Shown in pieces: positions 3,284-24,717 of a stretch of DNA of 35,154 bases. The position numbers and the translations under genes were made by a program. The notes beneath the pieces were generated by a model. That model saw nothing but the letters and a program-made list of their open reading frames with translations, was not told the DNA's origin and did no database searches. Every line of letters begins with the position of its first letter. The first letter of the stretch is position 1. The stretch covers positions 1 to 35,154 of the forward strand of contig NZ_JABXFD010000164.1 of the NCBI RefSeq assembly GCF_013372625.1. The letters are read 5' to 3'. The stretch is from Actinomadura sp. BRA 177 (GTDB lineage Bacteria; Actinomycetota; Actinomycetes; Streptosporangiales; Streptosporangiaceae).

Positions 3284-4192
3284 TCAGCCCGTGGGGCAGG
3301 TGCCCTCGTAGGCGGCGATGTTGTTGTCCGGCGTGGGCTCCGGGCAGAGGAACTTGTCGTAGCGGACGTCATTGTCGACGAACCGCTTCATCCACGCGAT
3401 CGCGTATTTCGCGATGGTCGTATTGGGTGAGTTGAAGGTCATGTGCCCGGCGTTCTTCAGTTCCAGGTACGCCTTTTCGGGCACGCCGGTGAGGCCCGTG
3501 TAGTACGAGTGCGCCATCGAGTCGGCGGGCGCGATGAAGTCGTTGTCCGCGCCCATGACCATGGTCGGGGTCCGGACGTCCTTGAAGTCGTAGTTGAGGT
3601 CCCACGGCGCGAGCGGCACGGCGGCCTGCAGCGACGTCCGCTTCTTCTCCGCCTCCAGCGTCCCGCCGCCGCCCATGGAGTGGCCCATGACGGCGAGGCG
3701 GGACGTGTCGATGCGGTTCTTCACGCTGCTCTTGCCGGTCAGGTAGTCGAGCGCGGCGAGGAGCTGGTCGCCGCGCGCGGCGGGGACGTCGAACAGGCTG
3801 TTGGTCTCCAGCGTCATGACGACGAAGCCCTGGGAGGCGAGGCGCGGCCCGTACCAGTCGATCAGGGCCTGCGGGGAGACGAAGCCGGGCGAGACGGCGA
3901 TCGCGCCGAAGGTGCCCTGGCTGAGGTCGGTCGGCGCGTAGATCGTGCCCTTATTGAAGCCGGATCCGCTGCCGGCCGGGACGTCGATCTTCTCGATGGC
4001 GAACGGGCCCTTCTCCGCCGTGATGCTCGCCTCGGTCGGCGCGGGGCCGCGCTCGTAGGGGTTCGCGGCGAGCTGGACGGCACCGGTCGGACGGGCGGGA
4101 GCGGCGGCGGCCGCGGGAGCCAGGGCGGCGCCCGCGGCCAGCACGGCGGCCGCGGGAAGCACTCTGAACGCATTCGTCAGATGCCTGTTCAT
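3284..4192 (-). CDS. Secreted cutinase / polyester-hydrolase-like alpha/beta hydrolase
   Basis: 302 aa with a Sec-type signal peptide (about 1-32, ending in an Ala-rich stretch). The catalytic triad of the bacterial cutinase/PET-hydrolase family is visible: Ser172 in GHSMGGGG, Asp218 in ADNDFIAP and His250 in NAGHM. Other family marks are the oxyanion segment SPGFVS (aromatic at 104), the substrate-site Trp197 in LAPWD, the signature AWMKRFVDND near 266-275, and a C-terminal Cys283-Cys299 pair that would form the usual disulfide. Family members hydrolyse ester bonds in cutin, triglycerides and synthetic polyesters outside the cell. ATG with GAAGGG 8 nt upstream. The exact substrate is not deducible. 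Confidence 0.93.
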   Translation of the reverse strand: MNRHLTNAFRVLPAAAVLAAGAALAPAAAAAPARPTGAVQLAANPYERGPAPTEASITAEKGPFAIEKIDVPAGSGSGFNKGTIYAPTDLSQGTFGAIAVSPGFVSPQALIDWYGPRLASQGFVVMTLETNSLFDVPAARGDQLLAALDYLTGKSSVKNRIDTSRLAVMGHSMGGGGTLEAEKKRTSLQAAVPLAPWDLNYDFKDVRTPTMVMGADNDFIAPADSMAHSYYTGLTGVPEKAYLELKNAGHMTFNSPNTTIAKYAIAWMKRFVDNDVRYDKFLCPEPTPDNNIAAYEGTCPTG

Positions 4193-18260: not shown

Positions 18261-19613
18261 TCACCGGCCCTGCAGGCCGCGGACGTTGTTACCGAACGTC
18301 CAGCCCTTCGAGCCGTCCCAGTTGATGGACCAGGTCATCAGACCCTTCAACTGCCCGTTGAAGTGATTCCATGCCTGGCCGACGAGACCGGTCGACATGT
18401 AGCCGCCGCCTGCGCCCGGCTGCGCGGGCAGCCCCGGCACCTGCTTGTCGTAAGGCACCCGAATCGTCGTGCCCTGGATGACGAGCCCGTTGTTGAGGCA
18501 TTCGGTCTGCTTCACGAAGCCCTCGACCGTCCCGGCGGAGTAGGAGTCACCGGAGCACCCGTACATGCTGCCGTTGTAGTACTGCATGTTGAGCCACCAC
18601 AGCCGGCCGTTGTCCGCGTACTTCTTGACGATCGGCAGGTACGCGCCCCAGATGGAGCCGTAGGTGACGCTGCCGCCGGTCACGTACGCGGTCTCCGGCG
18701 CCATCGTGAGCCCGAAGTTGGACGGCATCTGCCCGAGCACACCGTCGATGATGCGGATCAGGTTGGCCTGCGACGTCGACAGCTGGTTGATGTTGCCACT
18801 GCCGGTCAGCCCGGTCTCGATGTCGATGTCGATGCCGTCGAAGTTGTACTTCTTCAGGATCGGCACAACCGTCTGGACGAACCGGTCGGCGACGCTGCTT
18901 GAACTGAGGTCGATGCCCGCCGTCGCACCACCGATCGACATCAGGATGGTGGCGCCCGCGGCCTTCGCCGCGCACATCTCGGCGGGGGTGGCGACCTTGA
19001 CCGTCGAGTCCATGCCGTCCTCCCACAGGACGGTGCCGTCTGACCGGATGACGGGGAACGCCGCGTTGATCACGTTGTAGCCGTGCTGCTTGATCACGGG
19101 GTTGTCGATCGGCGTCCAGCCGAACGGCGGGTGGACGCCGTTGGACGCGCCGTCCCAGTTCTCCCAGTAGCCCTGCAGCACCTTGCCGGCGGGCTTCGAC
19201 TTCACCGCACAGGTGTCGTCCCCGGGCGGCTGCGTGGTGGGAGGCGTGGTCGGCGGCGTCGTAGGCGGCGTGGTGGGCGGCGTGGTCGGCGGCGTAGTCG
19301 GGGGCGTGGACCCATCACACGCACCGAGCTCGCGCCACAGTGTCGGAGTGGACGCAGGGTTCCAGTTGGCGCCGGGCCACGCGGTGTGCGCGACGAGCGC
19401 CTCGTAGCCCTTGCCGCTGTAGGCGACCTTGTCACCCACCTTGTAACTGTTGCCCTCGGCCCAGGCCGGATACGTGCAGGCGGCCAGGACGGTGGGCTGA
19501 GCGGACGACGGCGCGGACAGCACCACCAGCGCGCCCAGCGACAGCACCAGCGCCGCAAAGGCCGACGCCAGCGCCGCGATGGCCGGTGACCATCGCTTGT
19601 ACGTGATTCTCAC
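18261..19613 (-). CDS. Secreted GH18 chitinase with N-terminal chitin-binding module
   Basis: 450 aa. Signal peptide (about 1-45), a CBM5/12-type module (about 47-98, YPAWAEGNSYKVGDKVAYSG and aromatic residues in ANWNP and LWRELG), a (PPTT)n linker (about 102-129), and a GH18 barrel (about 142-450). The catalytic DxxDxDxE motif is intact as DGIDIDIE, with acid Glu266; MSIGGA (225-230) is the conserved strand 3. It cleaves chitin outside the cell. GTG at 19613 is supported by GGAGGAG 9 nt upstream. The linker DNA (about 19229-19315) is a 12-nt-period tandem repeat and may vary in copy number. Confidence 0.94.
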   Translation of the reverse strand: MRITYKRWSPAIAALASAFAALVLSLGALVVLSAPSSAQPTVLAACTYPAWAEGNSYKVGDKVAYSGKGYEALVAHTAWPGANWNPASTPTLWRELGACDGSTPPTTPPTTPPTTPPTTPPTTPPTTQPPGDDTCAVKSKPAGKVLQGYWENWDGASNGVHPPFGWTPIDNPVIKQHGYNVINAAFPVIRSDGTVLWEDGMDSTVKVATPAEMCAAKAAGATILMSIGGATAGIDLSSSSVADRFVQTVVPILKKYNFDGIDIDIETGLTGSGNINQLSTSQANLIRIIDGVLGQMPSNFGLTMAPETAYVTGGSVTYGSIWGAYLPIVKKYADNGRLWWLNMQYYNGSMYGCSGDSYSAGTVEGFVKQTECLNNGLVIQGTTIRVPYDKQVPGLPAQPGAGGGYMSTGLVGQAWNHFNGQLKGLMTWSINWDGSKGWTFGNNVRGLQGR

Positions 19614-19848
19614 GGGGGACGACTCCTCCAGAACGGGGACAGAGGAGCCGGCGCAAGAGCCGAACAAGCCCCGCGAACGCGAGACCCTCCCAGGCGCAAG
19701 GCGCAAACAACCGGCATGGACGCCACGAGCAGCCTAACCGCCCCGTCCCATCTCGGGAAGACCAAGGCACGGCCCCTCCGCCACGGGCGGACTGCTAGCT
19801 TGCGAAGGACGGCGTCACCATCGCCGCCTTCACGAGGAGACCTCCATC

Positions 19849-20521: not shown

Positions 20522-20917
20522 TTATGTGCGGTCGATGATCGCGAAGACGACCTTGCCGGCCTGGCCGGCGAGGGGGCGGACGCCCCAGCGGCGGGAGAAC
20601 TGGCCGACGATGAACAGGCCCCGGCCGACCTCGCTGACCATGTCGGTCTCCTGGACGTGCGGCAGGTCGCAGGTGGCGTCCTGGACCTCCATCCACAGGG
20701 CGTCGTCCTCCGTGCGGTCCAGCCGCAGCGTCACGTCCCCGTCCTTCTCGGACGCGTAGCGCAGCGCGTTGGTGACCAACTCGCTGGCCACCAGGCACGG
20801 GACGAAGTCGTCCATCCCGTACCGGCCGGTGACCAGCCGCACGAACTCCCGAACCTCCGCGACGACCTTGAGGTCCTGCTTCACCACCATCTCGTTCTCC
20901 GCCGCACCCTGGCCCAT
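20522..20917 (-). CDS. ATP-binding protein, HATPase_c_2 (anti-sigma-like)
   Basis: 131 aa. The GHKL core shows the N-box ASELVTNALRYA (about 44-55), VQDAT, and the G-box EVGRGLFIVGQFSRRWGV (about 96-113). It is divergent from the XRE-DUF5753 regulator, the standard whiJ/abaA-like arrangement in streptomycetes and relatives (HATPase, XRE, DUF397), which affects development and antibiotic production in those species. ATG with GAGGAG about 7 nt upstream. Confidence 0.9.
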   Translation of the reverse strand: MGQGAAENEMVVKQDLKVVAEVREFVRLVTGRYGMDDFVPCLVASELVTNALRYASEKDGDVTLRLDRTEDDALWMEVQDATCDLPHVQETDMVSEVGRGLFIVGQFSRRWGVRPLAGQAGKVVFAIIDRT

Positions 20918-20932
20918 GACCGCTCCTCACTC

Positions 20933-20952
20933 TGTGTGGCGAACACCACACA
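20933..20952. promoter_or_regulatory. Inverted repeat near the HATPase start
   Basis: TGTGTGG and CCACACA (7-bp arms, 6-nt spacer) lie 16-35 nt upstream of the HATPase ATG, where a repressor would block its promoter. No binding protein is identified. Confidence 0.35.
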
Positions 20953-20979
20953 TGTTGCAAGGTTTCGCAGTACGATGCT

Positions 20980-21011
20980 GTTACCAGGCTTGTCTGGTGA
21001 CGACTGGTGAC
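20980..21011. promoter_or_regulatory. Three related half-sites upstream of the XRE regulator
   Basis: GTTACCAG (20980-20987) forms a near-perfect inverted repeat with CTGGTGAC (20994-21001), which is repeated directly as CTGGTGAC at 21004-21011, a 10-nt phase. Helically phased half-sites between a divergent HATPase gene and an XRE gene suggest an operator for the XRE protein. Confidence 0.4.
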
Positions 21012-21058
21012 AGGCGTGTCTTCTCGGCGAGGTACCAAGGAAGGGAAACTTCGCGATC

Positions 21059-21868
21059 ATGCCCCCACGACGCCAACGCCCCAAGGAGTCCCCCGCCCTG
21101 ATCGCGTTCGGTGGACAGATGCGCCGGATGCGAGAGGCGAAGGGCATCACCCAGCAATCCATCGCCGACCACACGAACATCAGCAAGGCCCAGGTGAGCC
21201 GCATCGAGAACGGCACTCGGCGGGCCACGCGCTCATTCGTGGAGCAGGTCGACCGCATCCTCGGTTCGGACGGAGCCCTGATCAAACTCTGGGAGGACCT
21301 GAACAGGAACGGTCATCCGGTCCCGATCTGGTTCGACTGGCCCAAGATCGAAGCGGACGCGGCGATGCTCATATCGTGGGAGCCGATGCTGATCGCGGGC
21401 CTCGCCCAGACTCCGGCCTACGCGTCCGCCCTCCTGCAGGGCAACGAAGAAGCCGTAGCAGCGCGGCTCGCTCGCCAAGAGATCCTCACGAGAAACGACG
21501 GACGCACCCCACCGGAACTCGTGCTGCTGGTCGACGAGCAGGCACTTCGCCGTCCGGTCGGCACGGCCGAGACCATGAGGGAGCAACTCCAGCACCTGCT
21601 GGACCTGAGCATGTTGCCCAACATCACGGTTCAAGTAGTGTTGGAAAGCGGCGAGCACGACGGCAACATGGGCGCGTTCACCATCGCCACGATGGACGAT
21701 CGAAGCGAGGTCGCGTATATCGAGACGGCGATCCACGCCATCACGACCGACGACCCAACAGACCTGTCCACGCTGGCGCGTACTCTCAACGCCCTCCGTT
21801 CACGGACACTCACCGAAGAGATGTCGCGCGAGCTGATCAGAAAGGTGGTCCAGGAAAGATGGACCTGA
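21059..21868 (+). CDS. XRE-family regulator with DUF5753 (WhiJ/Scr1-like)
   Basis: 269 aa. The N-terminal HTH is at about 17-70 (FGGQMRRMREAKGITQQSIADH, ISKAQVSRIENGTR). The C-terminal DUF5753 domain (about 90-265) starts with WFDWPKIEADA and contains WEPMLIAGLAQTPAYASALL. These proteins act with a partner DUF397 protein; the XRE-DUF397 pair Scr1/Scr2 and the WhiJ locus of Streptomyces regulate antibiotic production and development. Here the next gene is DUF397, overlapping by 10 nt. The ribosome site is distant (GGAAGGG about 13 nt upstream). Confidence 0.93.
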   Translation: MPPRRQRPKESPALIAFGGQMRRMREAKGITQQSIADHTNISKAQVSRIENGTRRATRSFVEQVDRILGSDGALIKLWEDLNRNGHPVPIWFDWPKIEADAAMLISWEPMLIAGLAQTPAYASALLQGNEEAVAARLARQEILTRNDGRTPPELVLLVDEQALRRPVGTAETMREQLQHLLDLSMLPNITVQVVLESGEHDGNMGAFTIATMDDRSEVAYIETAIHAITTDDPTDLSTLARTLNALRSRTLTEEMSRELIRKVVQERWT

Positions 21869-22050
21869 GAAACACTAAGTGGCGCAAGAGCAGCTACACC
21901 GGCTCCAACGGCGGCAACTGCGTCGAACTGGCGGACGTGGCCGGCGCGGTGGTGGCGGTGCGGGACAGCAAGGACCCGGACGGCCCCGTCCTCCTCCTCA
22001 CCCGCGCGGCCCTGCGGACGGCCGTCCAGTCCGCCACCGACACCCACTGA
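21859..22050 (+). CDS. DUF397 protein, copy 1 (partner of the XRE regulator)
   Basis: 63 aa with the single DUF397 pattern: TKWRKSSYTGSNGGNCVELADV then VAVRDSKDPDGPVLLLTRAAL. ATG at 21859 lies within the last 10 nt of the XRE gene, with AGGAAAG just upstream, so the two are translated together. It is a small acidic-to-neutral cytoplasmic partner of the regulator. It has the standard length, unlike the three longer copies downstream. Confidence 0.93.
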   Translation: MDLRNTKWRKSSYTGSNGGNCVELADVAGAVVAVRDSKDPDGPVLLLTRAALRTAVQSATDTH

Positions 22051-22203
22051 CCGTCCAGCACCAATCACCCCGGCGACCCAACCCGCCGAGCAGCGGCGAG
22101 TCGTCCCGTCCCCCCGACCCGGACGACCCGCCGCGCCCCCACGGGTAAGACCCACGTCCGTCTACCTACCCCAGAGGGAACCTCAGCGAGGCGGGCGCGC
22201 CCG

Positions 22204-22238
22204 ATGACAAGCCCGACCGCGCGCCCGACACTGGCCCC
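22204..22238 (+). promoter_or_regulatory. Promoter for DUF397 copy 2, apparently leaderless
   Basis: ATGACA (22204-22209), 17 nt, then GACACT (22227-22232), then 6 nt to the ATG. There is no ribosome site, so the transcript would begin at or next to the start codon. Confidence 0.5.
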
Positions 22239-22493
22239 ATGCCCCTGGAAAACCTCAACTGGCGCCGCAGCACCCACAACGGCCCCAACGGCGGGAACTG
22301 CGTCGAACTGGCAGGGCTCTCCTGGCACAAGAGCAGCCGCAGCACCTCCAGCGGCGGTAACTGTGTTGAGTTGGCGGACGTGGCCGGTGCGCTGGTGGCG
22401 GTGCGGGACAGCAAGGACCCGGACGGGCCCGTCCTCCTGCTGACCCGCGCGGCCCTGCGGACGGCCGTCCAGTCCGCCACCGACACCCACTGA
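22239..22493 (+). CDS. DUF397 protein, copy 2 (extended, two half-motifs)
   Basis: 84 aa. It contains two copies of the DUF397 N-terminal element (NWRRSTHNGPNGGNCVELA and HKSSRSTSSGGNCVELA) before one VAVRDSKDPDGPVLLLT segment. The C-terminal about 45 residues are nearly identical to copy 1. It has its own promoter-like block and no ribosome site. Confidence 0.88.
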   Translation: MPLENLNWRRSTHNGPNGGNCVELAGLSWHKSSRSTSSGGNCVELADVAGALVAVRDSKDPDGPVLLLTRAALRTAVQSATDTH

Positions 22494-22642
22494 CCGTCCA
22501 GCACCGACCACCCCGGCGACCCCGAACCGCTGAGCAGCGGCGAGTGTCGGGGCGTCCCGTCCCGGACGACCCGCCGCACCCCGCCCTCCCTACGGCCCGT
22601 CCACCTATCCCAGAGGGAACCTCAGCAAGGCGGGCGCGCCCG

Positions 22643-22677
22643 ATGACAAGCCCGATCGTCCGTCCGACACTGGCGCC
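22643..22677 (+). promoter_or_regulatory. Promoter for DUF397 copy 3, apparently leaderless
   Basis: ATGACA (22643-22648), 17 nt, GACACT (22666-22671), then 6 nt to the ATG; same layout as copy 2. Confidence 0.5.
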
Positions 22678-22944
22678 ATGCCCTTGGAAAACCTCAACTG
22701 GCGCCGCAGCACCCACAGCGGCCCCAACGGCGGTGAGTGCGTCGAGTTGGCAAGCTTCACCGCCACCGCCCACTGGCGCAAGAGCACACGGAGCCTGGAG
22801 AACGGCGGCAACTGCGTCCAGTTGGCCGGGATGGCCGGTGCGGTGGTGGCGGTGCGGGACAGCAAGGACCCGGATGGCCCCGTCCTCCTGCTGACGGCTG
22901 CCGCCTTCCGCGCAGCCATCCAATCCGCCGCCGACAGGCACTGA
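22678..22944 (+). CDS. DUF397 protein, copy 3 (extended)
   Basis: 88 aa. N-terminal half-motif WRRSTHSGPNGGECVELA, a variable middle (SFTATAHWRKSTRSLEN), a second GGNCVQLAGMAG and the VAVRDSKDPDGPVLLLT segment, ending AAIQSAADRH. Gly-Gly-Asn-Cys is changed to Gly-Gly-Glu-Cys in the first element. Compared with copy 2 the middle has diverged, while the promoter and the ends are conserved. Confidence 0.88.
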   Translation: MPLENLNWRRSTHSGPNGGECVELASFTATAHWRKSTRSLENGGNCVQLAGMAGAVVAVRDSKDPDGPVLLLTAAAFRAAIQSAADRH

Positions 22945-23113
22945 CCGTCCAGCACCGACCCCCCGGCGGCCCCGAACCGCTGAGCAGCGGCGAGCGGCGA
23001 GTCGTCCCCTCCATCCCCGACCCGACGACCCGCCGCGCTCCACCCTCCCCACGGGTAAGACCCACGTCCGTCCACCTACCCCAGAGGCAACCCCGGCCGA
23101 GCGGGCACGCCCG

Positions 23114-23148
23114 CTGACAAGCCCGACCGGCCGTCCGACACTGGCACC
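23114..23148 (+). promoter_or_regulatory. Promoter for DUF397 copy 4, apparently leaderless
   Basis: CTGACA (23114-23119), 17 nt, GACACT (23137-23142), 6 nt to the ATG; the spacing is the same as in copies 2 and 3. Confidence 0.5.
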
Positions 23149-23415
23149 ATGCCCCTGGAAAACCTCAACTGGCGCCGCAGCACCCACAGCGGCCCCAACG
23201 GCGGTGAGTGCGTCGAGTTGGCAAGCTTCACCACCGCCCACTGGCGCAAGAGCACACGGAGTGGCGAGAACGGCGGCAACTGCGTCCAGTTGGCCGGGAT
23301 GGCCGGTGCGGTGGTGGCGGTGCGGGACAGCAAGGACCCGGATGGCCCCGTCCTCCTGCTGACGGCTGCCGCCTTCCGCGCAGCCATCGCGAACATCTCA
23401 GCATCCAGCACCTGA
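23149..23415 (+). CDS. DUF397 protein, copy 4 (extended, altered C-terminus)
   Basis: 88 aa, almost identical to copy 3 up to AAI, then NISASST instead of QSAADRH. The last codons align with the untranslated trailer of the other copies (TCCAGCACC), as if the normal TGA had become TCA and translation now runs 4 codons further. The tnpB element begins within about 30 nt of this end, so the change may mark an insertion scar. Confidence 0.85.
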   Translation: MPLENLNWRRSTHSGPNGGECVELASFTTAHWRKSTRSGENGGNCVQLAGMAGAVVAVRDSKDPDGPVLLLTAAAFRAAIANISASST

Positions 23416-23445
23416 CGGCCCGGGCACCGATCGCCACCGGCTCCC

Positions 23446-24632
23446 CTACGCAGGCAGGAGAGCGGGTTGAGGTTCGCGGTTCACCGGCCGGGCCGACGCC
23501 CCGCCTCCCCGCGCGGCCACCGTGCGTCCCACGGCGGTGTCTCGGATGTTGCGTGCGGCGTTGACGTCGGCGTTGGCCCGGTGCCCGCAGGCGACGCACC
23601 GGAACACCGCTTGGCTCTCGCGGTTGCTCCGGGCGCGGTGCCCGCACGCATGACAGGTCTGCGACGTGTACGCCGGGTCGACCTTGACGACCCGCCCTGG
23701 CGCCTTATGCTCCAACCGGGTCACGAGTTGCCCCCACCCGGCGGCCAGGATGGCCCGGTTGAGCCCGGCCTTCTGCCGGACGCCCGCGCCGGGGACATCC
23801 AGGGTGCCTTTCGCGGACCGGGTCATAGCCCGCACGTTCAAGTCCTCGACGGCGATGACGTCGAACCGGCGCGCCAGGTCCGTCGAGGTCTTCTCCACCC
23901 AGTCCCTGCGGCGGTCGGCCTCACGCGCCTTGAGCCGCGCGATGGCGGCCTTGACACGGGCACGGCGGTTGGACCCCCGCTTCGCGCGGGCCATGCGCCG
24001 CAGCAACCGGCCCAACCGCTTGGCCTTACCCCGCGTCAGCCCCGGCACAGTGCAGGTCTGGCCGGTCGACAACGCGGCCGACACCACCACGCCCCGGTCC
24101 ACCCCGACCGCCGCACCGTTGCCGGGCGCGGGAACGGGGACGGGCACGTGCGCGAACGCGACGTGCCAGCGTCCGGCGCGGTCGCGGGTCACCCGGAACG
24201 ACTTCACCCCCGGCGGGACGGGGCGCGACCAGCGGAACCGCACCCACCCCACCTTCGGCACCCGCACCTCACCCATGCGGCGCGACAACCGCCGCGCATC
24301 CCACGCCCGACCGCGAACCCCGACGATCCGGAACCCCTCTTGCCGCCCGGCCTTACGCCAGGTAGGGCGCCGGTGCGTGCCCGCGAAGAAGTTCGCCATC
24401 GCCTGGGCGAAGTCCTTGAGCGCCTGCTGCTGCACCGTCTGCGAACCCGCCGCCAACCACGCGAACTCGGCGCGGGCCTCGGTGAGCTGGCGGGCCCCGG
24501 CGCGGGGCCGCGGCGCGGCGTCCACCAAGCATGCTGCTCCACCGCCAGGTTCCACACGTACCGGGCGTGCGAGCAATGCTCCAGCAGCCCCGCCTCCTGG
24601 GCAGGGGTCGGGCACAGCCGGTACCTGGACAC
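23446..24632 (-). pseudogene. tnpB: tnpB, RNA-guided nuclease of IS200/IS605 family, frameshifted
   Basis: Reading from GTG 24632, the N-terminus VSRYRLCPTPAQEAGLLEHC then HARYVWNLAVEQHAWW is in one frame. From about ARQLTEARAEFAWLAAG onward the protein continues in the frame one nucleotide earlier, to the TAG at 23446. The change lies between about 24490 and 24522, in a GC-rich run, and fits a 1-nt deletion. The C-part has all RuvC/zinc features: GVDRG, VIAVEDLNV, CHACG...CVACG and NADVNAARN. TnpB cuts DNA guided by a transposon-end RNA. It would be active only if the frameshift is an error or is bypassed. Confidence 0.85.
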
Positions 24633-24717
24633 GCCCCGCAACCTACCGACCGCCACCGACAAAACCAGGACCGACTAAACCCGGAAGGTCACCGTGCCGC
24701 ACCATGCCGCGCTTCCT

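Follow-up and report, generated by a model that had tools for sequence, protein, structure and literature searches.

The 35,154-nt stretch of contig NZ_JABXFD010000164.1 from Actinomadura sp. BRA 177 that was analyzed here (positions 1 to 35,154, forward strand; hereafter the window) contains, according to reading frames and Pfam matches, a regulator locus that consists of a HATPase gene on the minus strand and, on the plus strand, an XRE-DUF5753 gene followed by four intact DUF397 genes. The HATPase gene (20522-20917, AbaA/RsbW-like, PF02518, E 3.1e-7) is divergent from the regulator gene (21059-21868), which encodes a WhiJ-like protein of 269 amino acids (aa) with an XRE helix-turn-helix (HTH) domain (PF13560, E 1.9e-16) and a DUF5753 domain (PF19054, E 1e-43); no second XRE gene is present. 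DUF397 copy 1 (21859-22050, 63 aa, 73.8 bits) contains a single N-terminal motif and starts inside the regulator gene, with a 10-nt overlap with its 3' end. Copies 2 (22239-22493, 84 aa, 94.3 bits), 3 (22678-22944, 88 aa, 94.3 bits) and 4 (23149-23415, 88 aa, 98.3 bits) each contain one extra N-terminal half-motif and match PF04149 in two stretches, compared with one in copy 1; all three begin with MPLENLNWRRS, and the C-terminal tail of copy 4 is unlike those of copies 1-3. All PF04149 scores are above the Pfam gathering cut-off of 24 (E 1.3e-20 to 2.8e-28). Thus, reading frames, Pfam and repeat searches bear out a preliminary description of this DNA, in which four tandem DUF397 genes were placed beside one XRE regulator, copy 1 was held to be coupled to the regulator, and copies 2-4 were credited with a doubled N-terminal motif. 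The combination of an XRE HTH gene, an adjacent DUF397 gene and a neighboring HATPase gene is that of a standard AbaA/WhiJ/BldB-type cluster.

The four copies form a direct-repeat family with spacings of 443, 451 and 468 nt, in which a mostly non-coding block at 22137-22322 is repeated at 22576 (82% identity) and 23047 (88% identity), in agreement with the distances of about 440-470 nt and the conserved non-coding parts noted previously. This identity is far above chance, and matches to the non-coding part of the repeat unit in the host genome (8.03 Mb in 735 contigs) are confined to the array, the remaining matches being short or in the coding part. Upstream of copies 2-4, the shared unit has the form TGACA-N17-GACACT-N6-ATG, which is exact at all three copies and is found nowhere else in this genome under the pattern used; GACACTGNNNNNATG occurs three times in the window, compared with a mean of 0.05 in shuffles of the window. 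The predicted leaderless-type promoters occupy 22205-22238 before copy 2 (TGACA at 22205, GACACT at 22227-22232, 6 nt to the ATG) and, by pattern match, 22644-22677 before copy 3 and 23115-23148 before copy 4, all on the plus strand. A relaxed pattern, TGAC-N16-20-GACACTG-N4-CATG, gives 18 matches in 12 of 65 genomes of the genus and none in the reversed control. Fifteen of these start a DUF397 frame, 13 with the whole domain and two as short frames with the N-terminal part (G029 and G045), and one looks accidental. The other two (L109 and L113, in two genomes) precede an alpha/beta-hydrolase-like gene, which we take to be proline iminopeptidase-like and which is probably another leaderless gene. 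A block around GTCCACCTANCCCA and AGG-N2-ACC, located upstream of the promoter unit, is common to most, not all, of the 15 DUF397 genes; given that these genes were preselected by the pattern, only positions outside it count as evidence of conservation.

In leaderless genes of Actinobacteria, the -10 element, with the consensus TANNNT, is located a few bases upstream of the start codon (PMC3160421, PMC4895711), and leaderless starts make up about a fifth of the primary starts in Streptomyces coelicolor (PMC4895711). In copies 2-4, GACACT is located 6 nt 5' of the ATG, with TGACA further upstream, and this distance suggests leaderless transcripts, so that the unit is predicted to drive transcription that starts at the ATG. 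A further view comes from 27 extra copies at related XRE loci that were collected without preselection by the pattern and sorted by eye (two of them lack the whole domain, and the third copy of locus L059, for which no start codon was found, is outside the list): 16 have the promoter unit, 10 have a remnant of the regulator 3' end that includes an AAAGG-type Shine-Dalgarno sequence, and one has neither. Copies of the first kind would be made on their own and those of the second kind together with the operon. The other fourfold case of this XRE subfamily (G015) also uses the promoter unit.

The divergent intergenic region between the HATPase and XRE genes (20918-21058) contains conserved inverted and direct repeats, as read by eye from an alignment of 30 loci. 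Candidate operators in this region, conserved across about 30 loci, include a TGTGTG-N-CACACA palindrome and GTTACCA/TGGTGAC repeats, and the repeats are likely to represent promoters and an operator. When they were compared by eye with the spacers of the array, a likeness around GGNRAC was too weak to claim a regulator operator there. The promoter-bearing genes are located behind regulators of widely differing identity, which, short of a formal test, counts against a cognate operator in the spacers.

Copy 1 is followed on the same strand by a stem-forming inverted repeat (22093-22134), a possible transcription end point that lacks a T-run. Within a longer hairpin, this repeat reaches -35.3 kcal/mol, compared with a mean of -15.8 and a best value of -22.7 for 30 shuffles, and a strong stem also follows the first copy in five related loci; all these stems beat all 30 shuffles, although the search grid was coarser for the shuffles, which favors the real sequences. 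The stem arms are conserved in sequence. At the single-copy control loci of KC06, A. latina and K4S16, the stems are not above the shuffles. In Streptomyces clavuligerus, bidirectional end points with strong stems have been described at 10 of 24 XRE-DUF397 pairs (PMC8269248), which is a parallel to the copy 1 stem but no test of it. Taken together, the conserved non-coding parts of the array can likely be read as leaderless-type promoters, one for each of copies 2-4, together with the strong stem that follows copy 1.

The extra half-motif is enriched in the added copies also at the related XRE loci, where it is present in 15 of 26 whole non-first copies, compared with 4 of 69 first ones (Fisher p 8e-8, computed with 15 of 25, leaving out the third copy of L059; the significance is overstated because related sequences are not independent). 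The number of extra half-motifs varies, from one in copies 2-4 to two in A. spongiicola and three in A. fibrosa. Outside Actinomadura, the doubled half-motif was detected in 11 of 26 non-window loci, and these 11 all belong to five genomes of a single other family; the 26 loci are the best matches to the doubled profile among 296 genomes of the phylum, so that the share is biased. A separate DUF397 protein of the same genome (contig 168, L168 1824-2237) contains three extra half-motifs by profile and four when a degenerate one recognized by eye is counted; judging from its sequence, it is a natural repeat protein built from the half-motif.

The AlphaFold2 model of copy 1 (mean predicted local distance difference test score, pLDDT, of 83.8) contains strands at residues 22-27, 31-36 and 44-48 and a helix at 49-62. 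Comparison of these strands with the motif boundaries indicates that the half-motif spans the loop at the N-terminus plus the first long strand, so that, in terms of this model, an extra half-motif probably adds a loop-and-strand unit at the edge of the beta-sheet and may alter oligomerization or the choice of partner. The model of copy 3, built from 19 sequences, has a mean pLDDT of 54, with residues 9-46 below 50, and is uninformative on the half-motif. Sequence searches with copy 1 or with a 48-sequence profile identified no related solved structure at E 1. The best VIA-align match of the copy 1 model is a PC4 homolog (5a4n, Z 5.3, root-mean-square deviation 2.9 over 56 aligned residues), Z 5.3 being a common level, and Foldseek detected nothing below E 1.2. 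In a mostly cursory screen of DUF397 papers outside subscription journals, no description of an N-terminal repeat was found, and DUF397 and the word leaderless were found together only in PMC10294661, where the word refers to iosA. Thus, the conserved promoter unit and the growing protein repeats seem to be undescribed so far.

The multiplication of partners as such is a common feature of the family. The host genome contains 96 PF04149 matches, 80 of them near full length, in 56 loci (same strand, gaps up to 700 nt), among which 40 are single, 10 double, 4 triple and 2 fourfold, i.e., 16 are multi-copy. The second fourfold array behind one XRE gene (contig 160, L154 2039-2927) is built differently, with gaps of about 25 nt between the genes (about 70 nt when measured between the domains) and without a promoter unit recognizable by eye; the sequences upstream of its copies 2-4 are nearly identical. 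The best 70 regulator matches in the 65 genomes of the genus include 65 loci uncut by contig ends, and these contain one DUF397 copy within 1.5 kb of the XRE gene in 47 cases, two in 13, three in 3 and four in 2, including the window; a relative of the HATPase is present at 64 of the 70 loci. Among 33 related loci with names, 30 are from Actinomadura, 2 from Spirillospora and 1 from Streptomyces. A single small partner is therefore the usual state, as the preliminary description had it, and the comparison of copy number among relatives that it called for gives a range of 1 to 4. Published counts point the same way: a median of 19 BldB paralogs per genome, with 94 in A. craniellae (PMC10294661), and, in S. 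clavuligerus, 33 DUF397 genes beside 24 XRE genes, with five tandem units, a single XRE protein being expected by the authors to meet DUF397 multimers (PMC8269248). Given these tandems in Streptomyces and the counts in the genome and genus, several partners per regulator are a known kind of arrangement: the earlier view of several partners for one regulator holds as a reading of the locus but not as an exception. The locus is a natural case of an ordinary habit of the family, not a new system.

The closest published arrangement is that of the XRE-(n)DUF397 units of S. clavuligerus, in which one XRE gene is followed by tandem DUF397 genes, with alternative starts upstream of most DUF397 genes and DUF397 RNA above XRE RNA (PMC8269248). 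The Actinomadura array differs in having four copies with long, promoter-bearing spacers, and the available text of PMC8269248 mentions neither an N-terminal repeat nor a conserved leaderless unit. The WhiJ9/BldB9 cluster and the AbaA/WhiJ/BldB clusters in general likewise combine HATPase, XRE and DUF397 genes as neighbors, and a promoter within whiJ9, separate from that of whiJ9 itself, serves bldB9 (PMC10294661, PMC4255298). The regulator-partner relation is a further likeness that extends to the Actinomadura locus by analogy only: regulators of the WhiJ type bind DNA and are modulated by the neighboring DUF397 proteins, WhiJ9 activates iosA upon BldB loss, and BldB hetero-oligomerizes with its paralogs (PMC10294661), and the phenotype of the SCO4542 deletion is suppressed by deletion of whiJ (PMC4255298). 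The clusters of Streptomyces venezuelae contain a single bldB paralog each, compared with four DUF397 genes here. In Streptomyces pratensis, Sfla_2921-2923 represents a local bldB duplication without an XRE partner, with two copies as opposed to four (PMC4239341). Scr1/Scr2 (SCO4441/SCO4442) is similar in pairing an XRE protein with a 63-aa DUF397 protein and different in having a single partner; Scr1 requires Scr2 for its effect, which is on antibiotic production (PMC6262351). Generally, mycelial actinobacteria are rich in DUF397/BldB proteins, which have a bearing on development and on antibiotic production.

In a tree of upstream and N-terminal DNA, read without support values, copies 2-4 group together, as do the three of G015. 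This pattern suggests that amplification took place separately in each lineage or that the copies evolved in concert. For the C-terminal domain, a tree pairs copies 3 and 4 with a support of 0.999, while the C-terminal domain of copy 2 is 90% identical to that of copy 1, so that copy 2 looks mosaic. Indels within the coding parts of the array are 12, 3 and 3 nt long. The earlier proposal to compare the ratio of nonsynonymous to synonymous substitution rates (dN/dS) among copies was followed with results that differ between pairs; for copies 2 and 3, the ratio is 0.34 (26.7 nonsynonymous and 21.3 synonymous differences, Nd and Sd; Fisher p 0.0015 on rounded counts), and at the level of sequence these copies show purifying selection. 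Broken or internally deleted DUF397 copies were observed near arrays (L153, L171, L074 6061-6777 and L087 7169-7306) and are a putative sign of ongoing birth and loss.

These observations are best explained by a scheme in which the DUF397 partner of an AbaA/WhiJ/BldB-type cluster was amplified by tandem duplication. Copy 1 would be co-produced with the regulator via the translational overlap, whereas copies 2-4, separated from it by the stem-forming sequence, would be separate transcription units, each with its own conserved leaderless-type promoter. The latter would supply DUF397 protein independently of the regulator promoter, leading to partner excess and mixed oligomers. By analogy with WhiJ/SCO4542, WhiJ9/BldB9 and Scr1/Scr2, the DUF397 protein would control the activity of the XRE regulator, with the extra copies tuning that activity by way of dosage and composition. 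Whereas the gene content, the intact frames, the conservation of the upstream units, the variation of copy number among relatives and the half-motif enrichment in added copies are directly apparent from the sequences, we infer the transcription start at the ATG, the expression levels, the regulator binding and any effect on the HATPase gene. In our judgment, the evidence somewhat favors a role in which the extra partners are expressed separately and, with an enlarged edge in some of them, shift the ratio of partner to regulator or the oligomer mix, and the anatomy of the array fits both of the roles considered before, dosage control and altered partners. In such loci, with one regulator, several partners with separate promoters and countable N-terminal units, stoichiometry and oligomer composition would be testable by simple deletions.

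Several observations weigh against the tuning of the regulator by separately expressed copies. GACACT departs from the actinobacterial TANNNT in having G as its first base, and scanning under strict sigma-70 criteria detected no promoter, so that the promoter remains a prediction. No T-run terminator was found on the array strand, the stems of spacers 2 and 3 are not above the shuffles, and pair covariation in the stems is not above the controls. The dN/dS ratio is 0.51 for copies 2 and 4 (p 0.053) and 0.56 for copies 1 and 2 (p 0.17), neither of which is significant, and reaches 0.79 for copies 3 and 4 over the whole sequence and 1.00 in the shared domain. Furthermore, among the closest regulators, those of A. 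latina (the nearest relative, 96% identity) and Actinomadura sp. KC06 (94%) are accompanied by one DUF397 gene and that of A. spongiicola (94%) by two; the case of A. latina indicates that this type of regulator does not need copies 2-4.

The high ratios for copies 3 and 4 and the lability of copy number among these close relatives are what one would expect also from neutral or transient tandem amplification via unequal recombination, in which copies 3 and 4 are merely young and their expression is without consequence, and decayed DUF397 pieces elsewhere in the genome and the genus point in the same direction. Nevertheless, the frame and the promoter unit are intact in all three extra copies, copies 2 and 3 appear to be under purifying selection, and other species retain the promoter unit in a corresponding position, so that we regard this explanation as unlikely, although not far-fetched. 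The extra copies could alternatively act mainly in trans, serving other WhiJ-type regulators or DUF397 proteins of this genome as partners or as subunits of hetero-oligomers, to the exclusion of the adjacent regulator. Such a role would suit the 56 DUF397 loci of the genome, the separation of the promoters of copies 2-4 from the regulator, and the precedent of BldB, which has no adjacent XRE gene and hetero-oligomerizes with most of its paralogs in S. venezuelae. It is distinctly doubtful, however, given that, for at least 13 of the 15 DUF397 genes with the promoter, an XRE gene of the subfamily is located no more than about 2 kb upstream (by hand comparison), which argues for a link to the local regulator; the remaining two are close to contig ends or lack an XRE gene of this kind in view. 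XRE-DUF397 pairs have also been proposed as type II toxin-antitoxin systems (PMC2701414), in which case the surplus DUF397 proteins would be toxins or decoys, but Scr2 is not toxic (PMC6262351), none of 14 pairs from S. coelicolor showed the behavior of a type II system (PMC10364602), and surplus toxin genes on promoters of their own would be hard to tolerate; this interpretation is highly improbable.

Beyond the tuning of a single regulator, the data invite a bolder conjecture, which we advance with little confidence. The DUF397 genes could form a modular series with a dedicated leaderless promoter, in which the number of copies per regulator (1-4) and of N-terminal units (1-4, perhaps 5) differs between species, multivalent or capped partners set the size and activity of WhiJ-type assemblies, and the block 60-80 nt upstream of the start is a shared activator site, possibly for the XRE protein. 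Should this be the case, development or antibiotic production would be retuned by changes in copy number and repeat number.

The array is closed on the right by a TnpB element (IS605 OrfB, 23442-24615, with the tnpB gene at 23446-24615, minus strand, PF07282 and PF01385) that is outside the system. As a source of the C-terminal tail of copy 4, this insertion sequence was rejected: the homology to other copies of the element in the genus mostly begins at about 23441-23445, i.e., 26-30 nt past the stop codon of copy 4, with a few weaker matches that begin at other points. The N-terminal part of TnpB appears to be encoded in another frame (24204-24662), so that the gene looks broken, and sequences closely related to its 3' end occur in multiple copies in several genomes of the genus, not in the host genome itself. 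Elsewhere in the window, there are genes for a PETase-like hydrolase (3284-4192, minus strand, PF12740, E 3.1e-103) and for a GH18 chitinase-like protein with CBM5/12 (18261-19706, minus strand).

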